Shown here in pieces: positions 5,982 through 16,575 of a DNA stretch of 22,417 nt; the stretch's first letter is position 1; every line of letters starts with the position of its first letter. The notes under the pieces were generated by a model. It was not told the DNA's origin and made no database searches. It saw only the letters and a list, made by a program, of their open reading frames with translations. Location: the IMG/VR virus record IMGVR_UViG_3300033183_000035, positions 1 through 22,417 of that record; one strand, 5' to 3'. This DNA is from a virus. The position numbers and the translations under genes were made by a program.

Positions 5982-6117
5982 GATTGCAGAGGTAGAATAC
6001 GAAACATCTAATATAGAGGAACATGCAAATGTTCTTTTTAAGCCTAACGCCGGGCCACAGACAGATTTCTTGGCCGCTTCTGAAAGAGAGGTTTTATACG
6101 GCGGTAGTGCTGGTGGT
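5860..6117 (+). CDS. terL: Terminase large subunit, exon 1
   Basis: This is the first 86 codons of the large terminase. The ATG at 5860 has a good Shine-Dalgarno (AGAGGA, 5848-5853, 6 nt) within the preceding gene; ATG 5911 is an alternative. After a basic N-terminal segment come NVLFKPNAGPQTDFLAASER and EVLYGGSAGG, the first half of the Walker A loop. Homologues continue GKSYAML directly. Here the frame instead enters a group I intron at 6118 and meets TAA at 6193-6195, so unspliced RNA gives only a 111-residue dead product. Joining 6117 to 6905 restores GGSAGGGKSYAML exactly. The full spliced protein is 519 residues. Confidence 0.85.
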
Positions 6118-6904
6118 ATGTTAAAGTCTGACACGTTGCCACCTTTCGCAGTAATGCGTCAAAATAAACTGGGTGAACTGCTGGAAACCCGATAAGGGCA
6201 ATCAGCAGCCAAGCCTCGAAAGAGGAAGGTTCAGAGACTATCCGCAAGGAGTAGGCCATATTGGTCGAAGCGCCCAGCCCCTGCAGACAACAGGGTGAAG
6301 ATATAGTCCGCAGCATTATCTATACCATTACATTATGTAATGAAGTACCAAGAGGTAGTTAAATGCAATATCTTTTATACAAGGCTACTTCGCCTTCTAA
6401 CCGTATTTATATTGGTGTTACCAATAACTTTAAGCGAAGGATGAAAGAACACCTATCTTCAAAATACCCATTTGGAGAAGCACTAAGAAAATATGGGAAA
6501 CACAATTTTACTTACGAGTTTGAACAGTTTGATTGTGTCGAGGATGCATTATTAAGAGAAGCAGAACTTGTTACTGAAGAACAAGTCAAAGATAAAAAGT
6601 ATTATAATGTTGCAGTAGGCGGCGGTAATACAAAAATGCTTTTACATAATAATCCTATGCATAGAAAAGAAGTAGTTAAAAGTCACCCAAATTTGTTTTC
6701 AAGTGAATACAATCCTATGTATAATAGTGAATCTAAACAAAAGATGATAGAGTCACAAGATAGAAAACAAGTAAGTATTGATGGTGTTGTATATGATGGA
6801 GTTAGGATAGCTGCACGTAGTATAGGATACTCAAGGCAGAGGTTAATACACCGGCTTAAATCCAACAACTACCCTAATTGGAAATATGTATAGATAATGC
6901 TGTG
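6118..6904 (+). ncRNA. Self-splicing group I intron (IA-like) in terL
   Basis: The 787-nt intron has boundaries that follow the group I rules: the exon ends in U (6117) and the intron ends in G (6904). P1: exon GGTGGT (6112-6117) pairs with GCCACC (6138-6143), placing U·G at the splice site. P2: 6147-6150/6155-6158 with a GTAA loop. P3: 6169-6175/6271-6277. P4: CTGCTG 6178-6183/CAGCAG 6203-6208. P5: 6188-6190/6196-6198. P6: 6214-6217/6222-6225 with a GAAA loop. P7: GACTAT 6236-6241/ATAGTC 6303-6308, with the hallmark TTCAGAGACTA and AAGATATAGTCC boxes. An extra hairpin (6279-6283/6291-6295) between P3 and P7 is a IA feature. P9-like hairpin: 6326-6332/6336-6342. The endonuclease gene fills the 3' part. 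Confidence 0.92.
6363..6893 (+). CDS. GIY-YIG homing endonuclease with NUMOD-type tail
   Basis: This is the intron-encoded mobility enzyme, 176 residues. The N-terminal GIY-YIG nuclease reads YLLYKATSPSNRIYIGVTNN (LLY at 4-6 in place of GIY, YIG at 16-18), then FKRRMKEH with the candidate catalytic Arg25/26. Glu66 or Glu68 (LLREAELV) is the likely metal ligand, and YYNVAVGG (80-87) closes the fold. The middle has two NPM motifs (97-99, 117-119) of the NUMOD3 kind. The C-terminus (137-176; VSIDGVVYDGVRIAARSIGY, then SRQRLIHRLKS and a final PNWKYV) is a NUMOD1-like helix-turn-helix. It should cut intronless terL near the Walker A codons. AGAGG at 6351-6355 (7 nt) is its SD. Codons are AT-rich. 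The stop lies only 11 nt before the 3' splice site. Confidence 0.9.
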   Translation: MQYLLYKATSPSNRIYIGVTNNFKRRMKEHLSSKYPFGEALRKYGKHNFTYEFEQFDCVEDALLREAELVTEEQVKDKKYYNVAVGGGNTKMLLHNNPMHRKEVVKSHPNLFSSEYNPMYNSESKQKMIESQDRKQVSIDGVVYDGVRIAARSIGYSRQRLIHRLKSNNYPNWKYV

Positions 6905-10354: not shown

Positions 10355-10490
10355 TTATATTGATGCGTTGATTGAACAAAATCATCGTACTCTTGAACAA
10401 GGTGATAATACAATTCTTATGCATCGTGCGCAAGGTGCAATTGCAGTGTTGCGTAGTATGAAGAAACTAAGGGATGCAGTAAATGGATGA
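10284..10490 (+). CDS. Small helical protein after portal
   Basis: This 68-residue helical protein starts within the end of the portal gene. I prefer ATG 10284 (MDKELLSKLKPLVNNKRQW) over the upstream GTG at 10275, because the MD-x-LLxKLKPLV opening looks like the natural start of the family. AAGGA at 10266-10270 is 13 nt from the ATG and 4 nt from the GTG, so the SD does not settle it. The rest (HFSNYIDALIEQNHRTLEQG, RAQGAIAVLRSMKKLRDAV) forms two amphipathic helices of coiled-coil type. Similar short proteins sit between portal and later head genes in marine phages; a portal or head-assembly accessory role is likely but unproven. The stop overlaps the next ATG by 8 nt. Confidence 0.75.
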   Translation: MDKELLSKLKPLVNNKRQWDHFSNYIDALIEQNHRTLEQGDNTILMHRAQGAIAVLRSMKKLRDAVNG

Positions 10491-13400
10491 TGTTAATAAG
10501 CAGACAGAAGAAATGTTATCTCCCGATGACATGATGCTGGATTCAAAGCCTGTAACACCTGAAAAATTAGCAGAAGCAAAGCAAGATGCAAAAGAAATAT
10601 TTTTTGAGTCTTTTCCGGGAATTGGAGAAGCAGCATCCGCTGGTAGAGTTGTTAAAGAACTAAAAGAAAAAGATTACGTTGGTGCTGGTATTGAAGGTGT
10701 TGCAGGTCTTGTTGGAGTTTTGCCTGTCGCTGGAGATATAGTTGGAAAAGGTATTAGGAAAACAGCGAGCAAACTTCGTAAGTCAGATATTCAAAATGCA
10801 GAAGAACTTTTAGATAATCCAGATAAAATGATGGAATGGCAAGAACAAAATAAACTGCCCGAAACACAACGTCAAGCAAATCCAGAAGTATCTAAAAAAG
10901 CTGCCGAAGATTTATTTGAAGGTAGAATAACTTCTAAACAGGCAAGAGAAGAAATACAAAGTGCCATACCTGCTCCTCAATTATATACAGCAGATAATAT
11001 GCCAGAAATGCCTACTGTAACCGAAGTTACTGGCTCTTTAGGGAAAAAGGCAGGAAAATTCGGAATACTTGGTGTAAAAGGTTTTGATTTAAAACCGGGG
11101 CAAAAGGTATCATCTAGGCTTGATATCCCAGCATACAATAATTACGACACATGGGTAGTATCAATACACGATGGAACAAAAGATGCTGGTTCTGTAGTTG
11201 GTTTTGGTCAAGCAATACGATTAAAAAATATTAGTTTTGGTTCAAAATCAAAAGAAGCCCTAGATATTGCAAGAGGAAAAAGAACTGTAGCAAAAACTGG
11301 CGAAGATAAGCCTATGGGCAAATCTACAATAGCCCGTATTTTTGGTGAATATGTACCAGAAGACCCTTATGTATTACAGGAAGAAGCCAGAAAATTACTT
11401 GCCGATCCTAAATCTGGGTGGACACAAGTTGGAATGAATCCCTATAGAGGCAGTGCCTTTTATAATAAGGAAACTGGTATGCCTGTCTTTGAGGCCGATG
11501 AAGTAATTCAAGTTGGACCTCTTGTCTTGGCTAAAAATGTAAAAAAACCAACTCTAAGTCAATTAAGAGAACTTGCTGTAAAAACAAGAGATGGCAAGAT
11601 TAGAATGTTTAATAAGGGTGGTAACGCTATGTCTATTGCAAAACAAATGGAAATGTTTGAAAACGGCGGCCTTATGGATGAAGGCGGTTCTGTTGACGAA
11701 GAATCAGGTAACGAAGTTCCACCGGGTTCATTGAAAGAGGAAGTTCGTGACGACATTCCCGCCCAACTAAGTGAAGGCGAATTTGTTTTTCCTGCAGATG
11801 TAGTTCGTTACTACGGACTTGAGACATTGATGGAAATGCGGCAACGGGCTAAAGCAGGGCTTGCTCGTATGGAAGCAATGGGTCAAATGGGTAATAGTGA
11901 AGAAGCCACACTTCCTGATGATATTCCTTTTACACTAGAAGACCTTGACATAGAAGAAGATGAGTACAATTACCAGATTGGTGGTTATGTTCCGGGCCAA
12001 TACAGTGGACAGGGCTACGGTACATATACATTGCCCGGAACTGGTGTTATGCAACAGCAGCCATCTTATCTGTCTACATACGGACAGCAGGTATCGCAAC
12101 AACAGCCAATAGATTATGGTATATATAATGTACCTTCTCAGCAACAATTTAGACCAGCTACATATACACCAGAGCCTTACACAGGTCCAAGATTTGAAGA
12201 TATAATTCCTACGCCAACAGGTGCGTATGATGAATTACGTAGATATGTAAATGCGCAAGGTCAAGTGCGCATGATTCCATTTGTAGATGGAAAGCCGCTG
12301 TATCCAATTCCACAAGGATTTTATCCAGAGGCAGAAATACAAGAGCAAGTTCCTGATGCTGTAGCACCTACAACTGGTCAAACAAGTGTTAGAGAAGGTG
12401 GGGATAGAAGCCAAGATGAAATGGGCGGCGGTGACATGAAAAGTGCTGCAGCGTCATTAGGTTACACTTCTGGCTCTGGTACATTAGCCGGATTAGGTAC
12501 AGCAGTGGCAGGTGCTGCTCTTGGTCTTCCCGGTTTAATAGGTGGATTTGGAAAATCTCCTACTTATGGAAATTTTGGAACAATAGACCCCGGTACAGGT
12601 GCTGTATTTGGGCAGTCTAATATTCCGGGTGCTATGGGCGGTACTGTGGCACAAGGCTACAGTCCAATAACAGGACAGCCTGTTTCAGTATTTTCTGGAA
12701 CTCCATCTGCAGGATATATGGGTTCTAGTGTAGCTAGTGCTTTTGGATTTGGTCCTTCTAGGTATTCTGCTCCAAGACTTGATGCGGCTACACCAATGGG
12801 CAAACTAGGATTAAAATCTACACTTGATATTGCTGTGTCAAATACTCTTGGATATGATGTTACTATTTCAAAAGAGAGACTGGAAGCAATGCCAAGTACT
12901 GCATATAAGTCCCAGCCAATTAGCGCATCTATGCTAGGATTTAGCCCAACACAGGCATCTTATAGCTTGGCAGAAAAAAATACAGGTACTATAGGTTCTG
13001 ATACAGGAAATATTACGGCAACAGATTTTGGTCTTGGTGTTGTAAACGAATCTAATCAAGTAGAAACGCCTAAAGGTACTGTAGTTCAAGTTGATTTTAA
13101 AGATGGCACTAAAGGTTCTTTGTTGGGAACGCCTGAAGAAAATAAAGAAGTTTTAGACAAATACAATCAAGAAAAAGGTCATGAGCCGGGTCCAAGTGGA
13201 CCTTCCGCACCTGCTGCTCCCGGAGGCGGTGGAAGTGGTCCACCAGCATCAGAAAAGGGGCAGGGTCCAAGCACAGGTGGAACAGATACTACAGGTGAAA
13301 CAGATACAGGCGGTAGCCCAAGTGCTGGTGGCGGTTCTGAACCTGATGATGATGGTGGCGCACCTTCTGGCGGCAACAGCATGGGTGACCAAGGTCGCGA

Positions 13401-13851
13401 CCGAGATGGTCGTGATGGTCCTCCGGGTAATGACAGTCCAAGTGGCTCATCTTGTTTTGCTGCTGGCACTAAATTTATCATGGAAGATGGGACAACCAAA
13501 AACATTGAAGACATCAAGATTGGTGATAAACTTAAACTTGGTGGGCGTGTGTATTCAACCATTCAAGGCGATGGTCTTATTGAAACATGGTATAATTACG
13601 GAACTACTAAGGTTACTGGAAATCACGCCATATTTGAAAACGGTGAATGGAAACGTGTCAAGGATGCTAAAGAAGCAATTCCAGCCCTACACAAAGAAGA
13701 GATTCTCTACACTCTTATCAACGAAAACCACAGAATGGTTGCAGAAGATGGAGTTGTCTACACTGACTACGATGAAGTTGACAACACAGGAATTGAAGAA
13801 GATTTGCTCATTCAACTTAATGGGCAAGGTGCTGAAGCAACAGCAGCATAA
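10483..13851 (+). CDS. Large multidomain virion protein with C-terminal Hint domain
   Basis: This is a 1122-residue modular protein. Residues about 35-95 hold a Gly/Ala/Val-rich hydrophobic segment (GIGEAASAGRVV, GVLPVAGDIVGKG). Residues about 208-360 form a conserved globular block (SRLDIPAYNNYDTWVVSIHD to VIQVGPLVLAKN). Residues about 395-492 carry the GGLMDEGGSVDEESGNEVPP, RDDIPAQLSEGEFVFPADVV and GLETLMEMRQRAK motifs, seen in many marine phage proteins. Residues 493-640 are Tyr/Gln/Pro-rich, 648-692 hydrophobic Gly/Ala-rich and 900-990 a Gly/Pro/Ser linker. From Cys991 a Hint domain begins (CFAAGTKFIMEDGTTKNIED, block-B-like TGNHAIF). A virion-internal or ejected protein that may self-cleave at Cys991 is the inference. 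SD AGGG is about 9 nt upstream. Confidence 0.8.
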   Translation: MDDVNKQTEEMLSPDDMMLDSKPVTPEKLAEAKQDAKEIFFESFPGIGEAASAGRVVKELKEKDYVGAGIEGVAGLVGVLPVAGDIVGKGIRKTASKLRKSDIQNAEELLDNPDKMMEWQEQNKLPETQRQANPEVSKKAAEDLFEGRITSKQAREEIQSAIPAPQLYTADNMPEMPTVTEVTGSLGKKAGKFGILGVKGFDLKPGQKVSSRLDIPAYNNYDTWVVSIHDGTKDAGSVVGFGQAIRLKNISFGSKSKEALDIARGKRTVAKTGEDKPMGKSTIARIFGEYVPEDPYVLQEEARKLLADPKSGWTQVGMNPYRGSAFYNKETGMPVFEADEVIQVGPLVLAKNVKKPTLSQLRELAVKTRDGKIRMFNKGGNAMSIAKQMEMFENGGLMDEGGSVDEESGNEVPPGSLKEEVRDDIPAQLSEGEFVFPADVVRYYGLETLMEMRQRAKAGLARMEAMGQMGNSEEATLPDDIPFTLEDLDIEEDEYNYQIGGYVPGQYSGQGYGTYTLPGTGVMQQQPSYLSTYGQQVSQQQPIDYGIYNVPSQQQFRPATYTPEPYTGPRFEDIIPTPTGAYDELRRYVNAQGQVRMIPFVDGKPLYPIPQGFYPEAEIQEQVPDAVAPTTGQTSVREGGDRSQDEMGGGDMKSAAASLGYTSGSGTLAGLGTAVAGAALGLPGLIGGFGKSPTYGNFGTIDPGTGAVFGQSNIPGAMGGTVAQGYSPITGQPVSVFSGTPSAGYMGSSVASAFGFGPSRYSAPRLDAATPMGKLGLKSTLDIAVSNTLGYDVTISKERLEAMPSTAYKSQPISASMLGFSPTQASYSLAEKNTGTIGSDTGNITATDFGLGVVNESNQVETPKGTVVQVDFKDGTKGSLLGTPEENKEVLDKYNQEKGHEPGPSGPSAPAAPGGGGSGPPASEKGQGPSTGGTDTTGETDTGGSPSAGGGSEPDDDGGAPSGGNSMGDQGRDRDGRDGPPGNDSPSGSSCFAAGTKFIMEDGTTKNIEDIKIGDKLKLGGRVYSTIQGDGLIETWYNYGTTKVTGNHAIFENGEWKRVKDAKEAIPALHKEEILYTLINENHRMVAEDGVVYTDYDEVDNTGIEEDLLIQLNGQGAEATAA

Positions 13852-13887
13852 ATCTGTTGCATAAACTGGCTACCCTAATCCCCCACC

Positions 13888-13906
13888 CCAACGTGGCTAC
13901 GGTTGG
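13888..13906 (+). other. Short hairpin just before the scaffold ribosome-binding site
   Basis: CCAACGT (13888-13894) pairs with 13899-13906 with one bulged G at 13901, giving seven base pairs and a GGCT loop. It lies in the 76-nt gap 13852-13927, 7 nt before the AAGGAG (13914-13919) of the scaffold gene. The heptamer TGGCTAC also occurs twice in the gap. No T-run follows, so this is not a terminator. It may tune translation or stabilise a processed end. Confidence 0.4.
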
Positions 13907-13927
13907 CCCCAGTAAGGAGAAGACAAA

Positions 13928-14803
13928 ATGTCTGAAACAATTATGGCTGAAGAAATGCAGCCACAAAAGAAAGTAGCGTTTGCAAATCGTAAATACACTA
14001 ACGAAGAAAAACGCAAAATGGAAGAAGAAGAACTGGAACAACTGCTCAAAGAGCAAAAGGGTGCAGTAGAAGAGCAAGAAGATACGGAACCACAAGAAGC
14101 TGAACCAGTAAACGCAGAAGAAAAAACATTTAAAAAACGCTACGGTGACCTGCGTAGGCATATGCAGGAAAAAGAAAAAGAGTTCCAAGAACAACTAAAC
14201 GAACTCAAATCTCAACTGTCTGATGCTACTAAAAAGGAAATGAAGCTGCCCAAGTCTGATGAAGACATTGAACAATGGGCAAAAGATTATCCTGATGTAG
14301 CAGCCATCGTTGAAACAATTGCAATGAAAAAGGCTCGTGAACAAGCAAGTGAACTTGAAGAGCGTATGAAAGCAATTGACGATATGCAGTTGTCAGCAAA
14401 GAAAGAGAAGGCAGAAGCAGAATTGATGCGACTGCATCCTGACTTTGACGAGATTCGTGACAGTGATGATTTCCACGAGTGGGCTGAAGAACAGCCTAAA
14501 TGGGTACAAGAAGCATTGTATGAAAATGACAATGATGCAAAGTCTGCCGCACGAGCAATTGACTTGTATAAAGCTGACAAGGGTATTACAACTAAAAAAT
14601 CCTCTAGCAGCAAAGATGCAGCAAAATCAGTTAATGCACGTAACTCACGTAGCAAGCCGCAAGAAGATGAGGCATCTACTTACTTACGTGAATCTCAAGT
14701 TCAGAAAATGTCGCCTCAAGAATATGAGAAACATTCTGATGAAATCATGGAAGCTATTCGGACAGGAAAGTTTATCTATGATATGTCTGGTTCAGCCAGA
14801 TAA
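13928..14803 (+). CDS. Capsid assembly scaffolding protein
   Basis: This 291-residue, highly charged Glu/Lys-rich protein is almost entirely helical and lies directly before the major capsid gene. AAGGAG at 13914-13919 gives 8 nt spacing to the ATG. After a short N-terminal part, residues about 28-105 form a strongly predicted coiled coil (EEKRKMEEEELEQLLKEQKG, YGDLRRHMQEKEKEFQEQL). The middle has DEDIEQWAKDYPDVAAIVET and a second helix block, then LHPDFDEIRDSDDFHEWAEE, a motif often seen in podovirus scaffolds. A Ser-rich linker leads to a C-terminal helical part (YEKHSDEIMEAIRTGKFIYD) that likely contacts the capsid protein. It directs prohead assembly and leaves or is degraded before DNA fills the head. 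Confidence 0.85.
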   Translation: MSETIMAEEMQPQKKVAFANRKYTNEEKRKMEEEELEQLLKEQKGAVEEQEDTEPQEAEPVNAEEKTFKKRYGDLRRHMQEKEKEFQEQLNELKSQLSDATKKEMKLPKSDEDIEQWAKDYPDVAAIVETIAMKKAREQASELEERMKAIDDMQLSAKKEKAEAELMRLHPDFDEIRDSDDFHEWAEEQPKWVQEALYENDNDAKSAARAIDLYKADKGITTKKSSSSKDAAKSVNARNSRSKPQEDEASTYLRESQVQKMSPQEYEKHSDEIMEAIRTGKFIYDMSGSAR

Positions 14804-14813
14804 AAAAAAAGTG

Positions 14814-14841
14814 TTGACAAATAGTTGTTTCTAAGTATAAC
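14814..14841 (+). promoter_or_regulatory. Sigma70-type promoter for the capsid genes
   Basis: TTGACA (14814-14819) and TATAAC (14836-14841) are separated by 16 bases. The -35 box starts 11 bases after the scaffold stop. The expected start is near 14848, giving a 5' untranslated leader of about 200 nt before the major capsid ATG. Consensus -35 and the same -10 hexamer as at 3676-3681 suggest use of host sigma70 polymerase. Confidence 0.75.
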
Positions 14842-14847
14842 TATAGT

Positions 14848-15045
14848 CATCATTAGTGTAAGTGGGTTCGCTACCTGCTTACACAATCACGCAAACAGTA
14901 CCGTCTTACGGATTACCTGAAGAGCATGGCCCGTTAATTGTCTGGTAGGCCAACTAGATATGATACGCACCCATAGTGAATCAGCCTCTGATTAGTCTGG
15001 TAAGTTTGCATCTGTTGAAAATGCCTAACATAATGGAGAAATATC
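14848..15045 (+). ncRNA. Structured 5' leader of the major capsid mRNA
   Basis: This approximately 200-nt gene-free leader contains several readable hairpins. The first is a continuous 12-bp stem (14856-14867/14873-14884, two G·U pairs, loop TCGCT) about 8 nt after the predicted transcript start. Next are CCGT/ACGG (14901-14904/14908-14911), TGGCC/GGCCA (14927-14931/14948-14952) and AATCAG/CTGATT (14979-14984/14988-14993, 3-nt loop). The octamer GTCTGGTA occurs at 14940-14947 and 14995-15002. The capsid SD is GGAG at 15034-15037, 8 nt from the ATG, and lies outside the strong stems. No T-run follows the first stem, so it is not a plain terminator. A 5' stabiliser or a regulatory RNA are likely roles. 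I do not recognise a named family. Confidence 0.6.
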
Positions 15046-16104
15046 ATGGCTTTTACTACTGCAGCCGGGTATGGTAATCTTCCTAACGGCAATTTTTCAC
15101 CTGTAATCTACAGCAAACAGGTGCAACTTGCTTTCCGCAAGTCTGCTGTTGCTGAAGCAATCACCAACTCCGATTACTTCGGTGAGATTGCTAACATGGG
15201 TGATTCCGTTAAGATTATCAAGGAACCCGAAATTTCCGTTTCGGCTTATGCACGTGGTACTCAAATCACTGCACAAGACCTAGACGATGAAGACTTCAGC
15301 CTGACGATTGACAAAGCTAACTACTTTGCATTCAAGGTTGACGACATTGAAGAGGCACACAGCCACGTTAACTTCCAGTCTCTGGCAAGTGACCGTGCTG
15401 CTTACCGCCTTGCCGACCAGTTTGACCAAGACGTTCTTGGTTACCTGTGCGGTTACAAGCAGTCTGCTCTGCATGGAAATGCAGACACTGTTAACACCAC
15501 TGTTAACGGTTCAAAGGCTGTTTCAACTGCAGGTTCTGACGAACTTCTGTCTTCCATGAAACTGGAAGCAGACGACTTCGGCGGTTCCGCAGGTTCCTCA
15601 ATTGGTATTCAGGCTCGTGCTGGTGGCGCGACTTCTGCAACTGTTGGTTCAGGTAATGCCAACGCACTGCAGATTGTTGCTCGTATGGCACGTAAACTGG
15701 ACCAGCAGAATGTTGATAGCCAAGGCCGCTGGCTGGTTATTGACCCTGTATTCAAAGAAATCTTGATGGACGAAGATTCACGTCTTCTGAACTCTGATTT
15801 CGGTGGTGCAGGTCTGCAGAATGGCCTCATCCTGAATAACCTGCACGGTTTCCGTGTCTACGTTTCTAACAACCTGCCTTCAGTTGGTACAGGTCCATCT
15901 ACTACTGGTGGTACTAACGCTTCCAACTACGGCTTGATGGTTGCTGGTCACGATTCTGCTGTTGCTACTGCAGAGCAGATTAACAAGACTGAAACCTACC
16001 GTGACCCTGACAGCTTTGCTGACATCGTTCGTGGTATGCACCTGTACGGTCGCAAGATTCTTCGTCCTGAAGGTCTTGTTAACGCCAAGTACAACTTGGT
16101 ATAA
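15046..16104 (+). CDS. Major capsid protein
   Basis: This 352-residue shell protein is presumably of the HK97 fold. Recognisable parts are NGNFSPVIYSKQVQLAFRKS near the N-terminus, VAEAITNSDYFGEI, GDSVKIIKEPEISVSAYARG (strand region), ITAQDLDDEDFSLTIDKANY with FAFKVDDIEEAHS, and near the C-terminus RWLVIDPVFKEILMDEDSRL, NNLHGFRVYVSNNLP and DSFADIVRGMHLYGRKILRP. These follow the pattern of podovirus and marine phage capsid proteins I recognise. Codon choice is visibly shifted to C-ending codons (AAC, GAC, TTC) and CTG compared with neighbours, as expected for the most expressed gene. It has its own promoter and leader upstream and a scaffold gene before it. Confidence 0.92.
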   Translation: MAFTTAAGYGNLPNGNFSPVIYSKQVQLAFRKSAVAEAITNSDYFGEIANMGDSVKIIKEPEISVSAYARGTQITAQDLDDEDFSLTIDKANYFAFKVDDIEEAHSHVNFQSLASDRAAYRLADQFDQDVLGYLCGYKQSALHGNADTVNTTVNGSKAVSTAGSDELLSSMKLEADDFGGSAGSSIGIQARAGGATSATVGSGNANALQIVARMARKLDQQNVDSQGRWLVIDPVFKEILMDEDSRLLNSDFGGAGLQNGLILNNLHGFRVYVSNNLPSVGTGPSTTGGTNASNYGLMVAGHDSAVATAEQINKTETYRDPDSFADIVRGMHLYGRKILRPEGLVNAKYNLV

Positions 16105-16530: not shown

Positions 16531-16534
16531 TTAA

Positions 16535-16575
16535 GTGAAGGGGCTGGGCAACTGGCCCCTTCCACTCGTTTATTA
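16535..16575 (+). terminator. Intrinsic terminator after the capsid genes
   Basis: A GC-rich stem, GTG-AAGGGGC (16535-16544) with GCCCCTT-C-CAC (16555-16565), has one bulged C and two extra G·U pairs inside. It is followed by TCGTTTATTATA, a broken T-run. It lies in the 66-nt gap between the decoration-like gene and the next gene. With the promoter at 14814 it would define a two-gene capsid transcript, with some readthrough to supply the tail genes. Confidence 0.7.

Follow-up and report, generated by a model that had tools for sequence, protein, structure and literature searches.

The coat gene of an HMO-2011-type marine phage is preceded by a structured RNA leader that is conserved among relatives, and the internal-loop module forming the core of this leader recurs at the ribosome-binding site of the neighbouring scaffold gene. 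We consider conservation of the RNA structure a near certainty, with a signal well beyond chance. That the leader acts in cis and binds a head protein, thereby co-ordinating scaffold and coat synthesis, is in our estimate an evenly balanced proposition. The leader is a new RNA family, absent from Rfam, of a known general kind, the cis-regulatory leader.

The window, i.e., the whole stretch of 22,417 nt analysed here, is a 22-kb virus fragment from IMG/VR (record IMGVR_UViG_3300033183_000035). Its source is an HMO-2011-type phage; phages of this type have been described as a dominant, widespread marine viral group (PMC9038755). The coat protein of the window was 83% identical to the coats of Puniceispirillum phage HMO-2011 and Roseobacter phage CRP-345. 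The gene preceding the coat gene sits between the portal-side genes and the coat gene, the usual place of scaffold genes. The predicted structure of its product is all-helical and matched a BFVD "scaffolding protein" by fold at 5e-4. Based on the position, the all-helical model and this fold match, we strongly infer that it encodes the scaffold. Sequence and fold searches with its product found no match in the PDB, and no recognised RNA-binding domain was found in it by Pfam, PDB sequence search or structure/fold search. Feature coordinates are collected in Table 1.

Table 1. Features of the scaffold–coat region of the window. Positions count from the first nucleotide of the window.
Feature	Position	Strand	Details and basis
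Scaffold leader, outer helix and loop	13865–13913	+	Helix ACUGG 13865–13869/CCAGU 13909–13913; loop CUAC 13870–13873/CC 13907–13908
Scaffold leader, inner loop	within 13865–13913	+	CC 13881–13882/UAC 13898–13900
Scaffold Shine–Dalgarno site and start codon	13914–13930	+	AAGGAG 13914–13919, directly 3′ of the outer helix; start codon 13928; sequence
Probable scaffold protein gene	13928–14803	+	291 aa; position, all-helical model, BFVD match
Coat promoter	14814–14841	+	TTGACA 14814–14819, 16 nt, TATAAC 14836–14841; sequence; conserved
Structured 5′ leader of the coat mRNA	14848–15045	+	~198 nt; covariation; covariance model R1 finds held-out leaders
P1, hairpin near the predicted 5′ end	14856–14884	+	12 bp, 14856–14867/14873–14884; two-sided changes, e.g., AU/GC/UA, GC/CG/AU
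P2, long-range helix closing the core	14891–15009	+	GCAAAC 14891–14896/GUUUGC 15004–15009; 97% of cells paired
Module A	14909–14990	+	Helix CGGA/UCUG (14909–14912/14987–14990); loop UUAC 14913–14916 opposite CC 14985–14986
Central helix	14917–14984	+	5′ strand 14917–14929 (13 nt); 3′ strand 14971–14984
Module B, inverted	14930–14970	+	CC 14930–14931 opposite CAC 14968–14970; covariation
Module B inner helix and apical hairpin	within 14930–14970	+	Inner helix 14932–14934/14965–14967; apical hairpin 14939–14946/14953–14960
Possible alternative helix	15008–15024	+	GCAU 15008–15011/AUGC 15021–15024; inferred from sequence
Coat Shine–Dalgarno site and start codon	15035–15048	+	GGAG 15035–15038; start codon 15046; sequence
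Major capsid (coat) protein gene	15046–16104	+	phrog_267 major head protein, 6.9e-67
GC hairpin after the coat gene and a 136-aa gene	16534–16566	+	Strong; counterpart in relatives

The consensus promoter noticed in the preliminary description is conserved. Both hexamers were kept, at one mismatch in 12, in 109 of 111 window-type leaders (46/46 relatives with a coat identity of at least 80% and 63/65 at 70–80%), at a position 180–280 nt before the coat AUG. A simple promoter scanner missed this site because it demands a T at the final position. The position of the promoter predicts a transcript start at about 14848. The gap before the coat gene measures 242 nt in the window, and the distance between scaffold stop and coat start was 208–297 nt in nearly all of the dozens of relatives whose upstream sequence was long enough. 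Pelagiphages HTVC033P and HTVC115P were found to be without a long coat leader. The earlier statement that the genes are otherwise packed within a few bases was too strong: gaps of 76 nt (13852–13927) and larger occur, and the 76-nt gap holds a scaffold leader with a related fold. The idea drawn from that statement, that the gene-free gap before the coat gene is functional at the RNA level, is strongly supported by its conserved length, position and promoter and by compensatory pairs. A conserved upstream ORF was rejected, as the short AUG-GCC-CGU-UAA frame in the leader is lost in relatives. In phage ctYwJ313 (MW202701; locus L085), an HNH/PacI-like endonuclease gene (1815–2384) lies inside the coat leader, splitting it.

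Each of the 15 phages compared had a strong GC hairpin in the corresponding gap, which follows either the coat gene itself or the small gene next to it. The U-tract of the hairpin in the window is weak or absent, and the hairpin is likely the 3′ end (terminator) or a stabiliser of the coat transcript. Since such a hairpin follows the coat gene in all 15 phages, the promoter, leader, coat gene and hairpin look like a single compact transcript.

We assessed the fold of the leader by covariation. In 30 leaders aligned without structure, the 43 supported pairs were paired in 95% of cells, and both sides had changed in 20 of the 43. In a control with slid partners, at most 44% of cells were paired and at most nine pairs were doubly changed. 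The number of doubly changed cells was 139, compared with a shuffled mean of 46. A phylogeny-aware test was also applied to 62 sequences; this was a home-made counterpart of R-scape rather than R-scape itself, and used a G-test with APC and a null in which substitutions were redistributed along a FastTree tree. The five strongest of the 13,695 column pairs all fell within the structure, and 8 of 46 structure pairs were significant. Conservation and compensatory changes in relatives, which the preliminary description had proposed to look for, were therefore both found. Many core pairs never vary inside the window-type clade, so their support comes from other clades. The folding energy of the window leader alone was unremarkable (z = −1.17) and thus uninformative, and the evidence for the fold is the covariation. 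Compensatory changes, together with a fixed position before the same genes in relatives, characterise the leader as a structured cis-regulatory RNA.

The individual helices differed in how well they were conserved. P1, the 12-bp hairpin that the preliminary description placed about 8 nt from the predicted 5′ end, was confirmed and showed strong covariation; in cousins, P1 carries a third YAC/CC loop, as read from the sequence. The sequence of P2 varies little among the aligned leaders. The possible alternative helix lies just before the Shine–Dalgarno site, overlaps the 3′ strand of P2 and is not kept in all clades. Two features that had been singled out are present in the window and poorly conserved elsewhere. 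The 6-bp hairpin with the loop CCU (14979–14984/14988–14993) retains 6 bp in only 21 of 62 relatives and at most 2 bp in 17 of them; its bases pair instead in a conserved long-range helix, with at least 3 bp in 62/62. The 8-nt repeat GTCTGGTA occurs twice (14940–14947 and 14995–15002) and is shared, according to the alignment, by the window and its nearest relatives alone. Lacking conservation, both were rejected as functional features.

Comparison of divergent leaders identified a repeated unit consisting of a helix closed by G-C (or A-U), CC opposite YAC (UAC or CAC, plus 0–2 further nt), and a second helix. The leader core is made of two such YAC/CC internal loops in opposite orientations flanking a central helix, and is two-fold pseudo-symmetric. 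Pairs 14932–14967 and 14946–14953 were among the strongest covariations. A strict rule for the nested double module, written after about fifty leaders had been inspected and giving coat-leader counts that are not fully independent, was satisfied by 124 of 244 distinct leaders, whereas dinucleotide shuffles predict 0.17. Three results given below are independent of that rule-writing: those on the scaffold leaders, the held-out matches of the covariance model and the IMG/VR scans. The coat leader was the sole nested-module match on either strand of the window. The 5′ strand of the central helix was exactly 13 nt long in 98 of 119 distinct leaders, and the apical part spanned 9–59 nt. Such rigid spacing between two inverted copies would be expected under selection by a symmetric binding partner. 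The core was also recognised by eye in the coat leaders of phiM6 (Sinorhizobium) and RHph_N3_13 (Rhizobium), and the module therefore extends beyond marine phages; the strict rule catches 4 of 23 distinct phiM6-group leaders. UUACC/GCC recalls what we take to be the asymmetric loop of SRP RNA domain IV, and no SRP family match to the leader was found in Rfam.

A few nested-module matches outside coat leaders lay just before the scaffold gene. The scaffold leader adopts the two-loop fold of the coat leader with a shorter central helix (5–6 bp), as exemplified by locus L018 (UUGG-CUAC-CUAUG-CC-CCU..AGG-CUAC-CAUAG-CC-CCAA) and by CRP-235 (UUGGG-CUAC-CCGUAUACGG-CC-CCCAA-GGA). Scaffold-leader pairs were counted by anchors, since alignment A3 does not keep leaders with 5-bp and 6-bp central helices in register. 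CC was present at the place predicted by the strand lengths in 48/48 aligned scaffold leaders; CUAC and CC were invariant, and the helix pairs switched between UA and CG or among UA, AU and CG. The module was detected in 116 of 200 distinct scaffold upstream regions; shuffles predicted 8.1, and the reverse strand gave 26. In nearly all, the outer helix ends 8–17 nt before the AUG, which places it against or inside the Shine–Dalgarno site. When the 248 genes of HMO-2011, CRP-235, CRP-207 and phiM6 were ranked by module score, coat and scaffold genes took five of the top seven places. An outer helix of only 2 bp gives the scaffold genes of CRP-207 and phiM6 a score of zero. At 33 loci, apparently of the CRP-207 type, an ATAACTA element resembling the coat promoter −10 begins 10 nt before the scaffold module (e.g., in L088, just upstream of the scaffold start at 1308). 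Given this distance, the first bases of the scaffold transcript at these loci may be the module itself.

Next, we searched for the leader in other phages. Covariance model R1, trained on the 30 leaders, recovered cousins outside the training set, including CRP-345 and CRP-1, with E-values of 8e-15 to 2e-8, all at the coat leader. Searched against 13 whole records, R1 matched eight, each with a single match on the plus strand; it missed CRP-9, CRP-207, phiM6 and RHph_N3_13, whose leaders differ too much in sequence. Reverse-strand matches of R1 were rejected as a second element: in the same leaders they coincide with the promoter and P1, and we read them as echoes of the palindromic P1. Among the IMG/VR matches listed for the coat-leader pattern, 71 of 72 newly fetched loci have a coat homologue 50–400 nt downstream, and the sequence of the remaining locus ends after 163 nt. 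Among those listed for the scaffold-leader pattern, 66 of 71 newly fetched loci precede a scaffold homologue; of the others, one is truncated and four are repeats within coding sequence that have no relation to the scaffold. Comparison of Rfam 15 with the window yielded no match to the leader at the gathering score or at E ≤ 5, and comparison with the coat leader alone yielded none at E ≤ 10. The phiM6 leader produced chance-level matches only.

We propose that the coat leader acts in cis and that its YAC/CC loop pair would be bound by a phage head protein; the scaffold protein is the most likely candidate, and free coat protein the alternative. Since the internal-loop motif is common to the coat leader and the scaffold ribosome-binding site, one RNA signal probably tunes the output of both main shell-building proteins. 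For the scaffold gene, the location of the module points to translational repression: a protein bound against the Shine–Dalgarno site would block ribosomes. The core of the coat leader lies about 55 nt before the AUG and leaves the coat Shine–Dalgarno site uncovered, so simple ribosome occlusion fails for the coat side. The larger coat-leader version, farther upstream, would instead set coat translation or mRNA life, and the alternative GCAU/AUGC helix might couple folding of the core to coat translation. Free head protein would thereby feed back on scaffold and coat synthesis, and their ratio would fit assembly. In this reading the binding, its ligand and the sign of regulation are inferred. 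A more specific version, in which HMO-2011-type and related alphaproteobacterial phages share a double-loop operator through which a dimeric head protein would couple the capsid assembly state to scaffold and coat synthesis, is put forward tentatively, with credence somewhat short of even.

The preliminary description had offered mRNA stability, processing and feedback by a virion protein as possible functions. Sequence evidence favours feedback over the other two, because the coat-leader module is also found at the scaffold ribosome-binding site. A passive leader, in which the 5′ hairpin and core shield the abundant coat mRNA from RNase E, or an RNase III cut defines its 5′ end, and the GC hairpin closes its 3′ end, is unlikely but deserves attention. 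The stable 12-bp hairpin so close to the predicted 5′ end is consistent with it, as is the conserved GC hairpin after the coat gene and the next gene. Stability would, however, require neither invariant loop bases nor a fixed 13-nt spacing, and CUAC and CC stay invariant in scaffold leaders while the helices change. RNase III usually acts on a near-continuous double helix of about 20 bp, whereas the scaffold-leader helices are short; the CRP-235 scaffold hairpin, which has 5 bp and a short inner hairpin, does not reach the length of a usual site.

A riboswitch for a small molecule or ion, with two pseudo-symmetric ligand sites, could account for the invariant loop bases and two-fold arrangement, and tandem-site riboswitches exist. 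We consider it improbable: among the matches listed, the element is confined to the upstream regions of two head genes in one phage family and is absent from those of metabolic or transport genes, and it matches no Rfam riboswitch. Similarly improbable is an RNA that would modify RNA polymerase for antitermination or attenuation in the late operon, on the model of HK022, in which two put stem-loops give read-through of downstream terminators. The leader does begin right after the promoter, ahead of the coat and tail genes, and a terminator-like hairpin lies downstream, but the scaffold copy sits at a ribosome-binding site inside the operon, where such an element is unneeded. Its compact, strongly conserved fold and own promoter would also suit a trans-acting or virion-packaged RNA released from the leader in the manner of phi29 pRNA, which is very improbable given that the leader is always joined in cis to the coat gene among the matches listed, that the same module is present in the scaffold mRNA, and that no terminator-like site was found between leader and coat.

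For the head-protein reading, the nearest precedent appears to be phage P22, whose scaffolding protein (gene 8) controls its own level by autogenous, post-transcriptional feedback; we know of no RNA operator for it. The window phage would resemble P22 in a scaffold-based head assembly and in having the probable scaffold gene adjoin the coat gene, and differs in the RNA module before both genes, a candidate site. In the single-stranded RNA phages MS2 and R17, the dimeric coat protein binds a hairpin near a start codon and represses translation. That operator is a bulged hairpin with a loop, whereas the paired YAC/CC internal loops occur in a double-stranded DNA phage and before two target genes. 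Among ribosomal-protein leaders, L10(L12)4 binds the structured autoregulatory leader of its own operon, rplJL (PMC4538822). That leader and the phage leader are both structured and precede genes for products of one assembly, with binding and regulation putative in the phage; the L10(L12)4 leader mimics an rRNA site, and no such mimicry was found in the phage leader. The structured RNAs manA, wcaG and PhotoRC-II were first seen in marine phage or metagenome sequence (PMC2864571) and precede metabolic or photosynthesis genes, whereas the phage leader precedes head genes. All three are in Rfam and showed no match to the leader; Ocean-VI (PMC2864571) has no Rfam number and lies outside this comparison. 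We found nothing in the literature on the coat leader RNA.

A module common to the scaffold and coat genes of tailed phages is unusual. With it, the long-standing question of how scaffold and coat synthesis are matched in tailed phages gains a concrete target at the RNA level. It is also a compact, recurrent internal-loop module that has invariant loop bases and no counterpart in Rfam. Should it be an operator for a dimeric head protein, it would represent a previously unrecognised RNA-level control of stoichiometry in tailed double-stranded DNA phages.

Two further observations were made elsewhere in the window. The 1122-aa product of the gene at 10483–13851 showed weak, sub-threshold Hint similarity (Hom_end-associated Hint, Vint) at residues ~990–1086, near its C-terminus, which is unusual for a virion-region gene. 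A Group I intron (RF00028, 2e-16; 6096–6327) lies within the large terminase gene, and the ORF 3′ of it (6363–6893) encodes GIY-YIG and I-TevI DNA-binding domains, the whole feature spanning 6096–6893.
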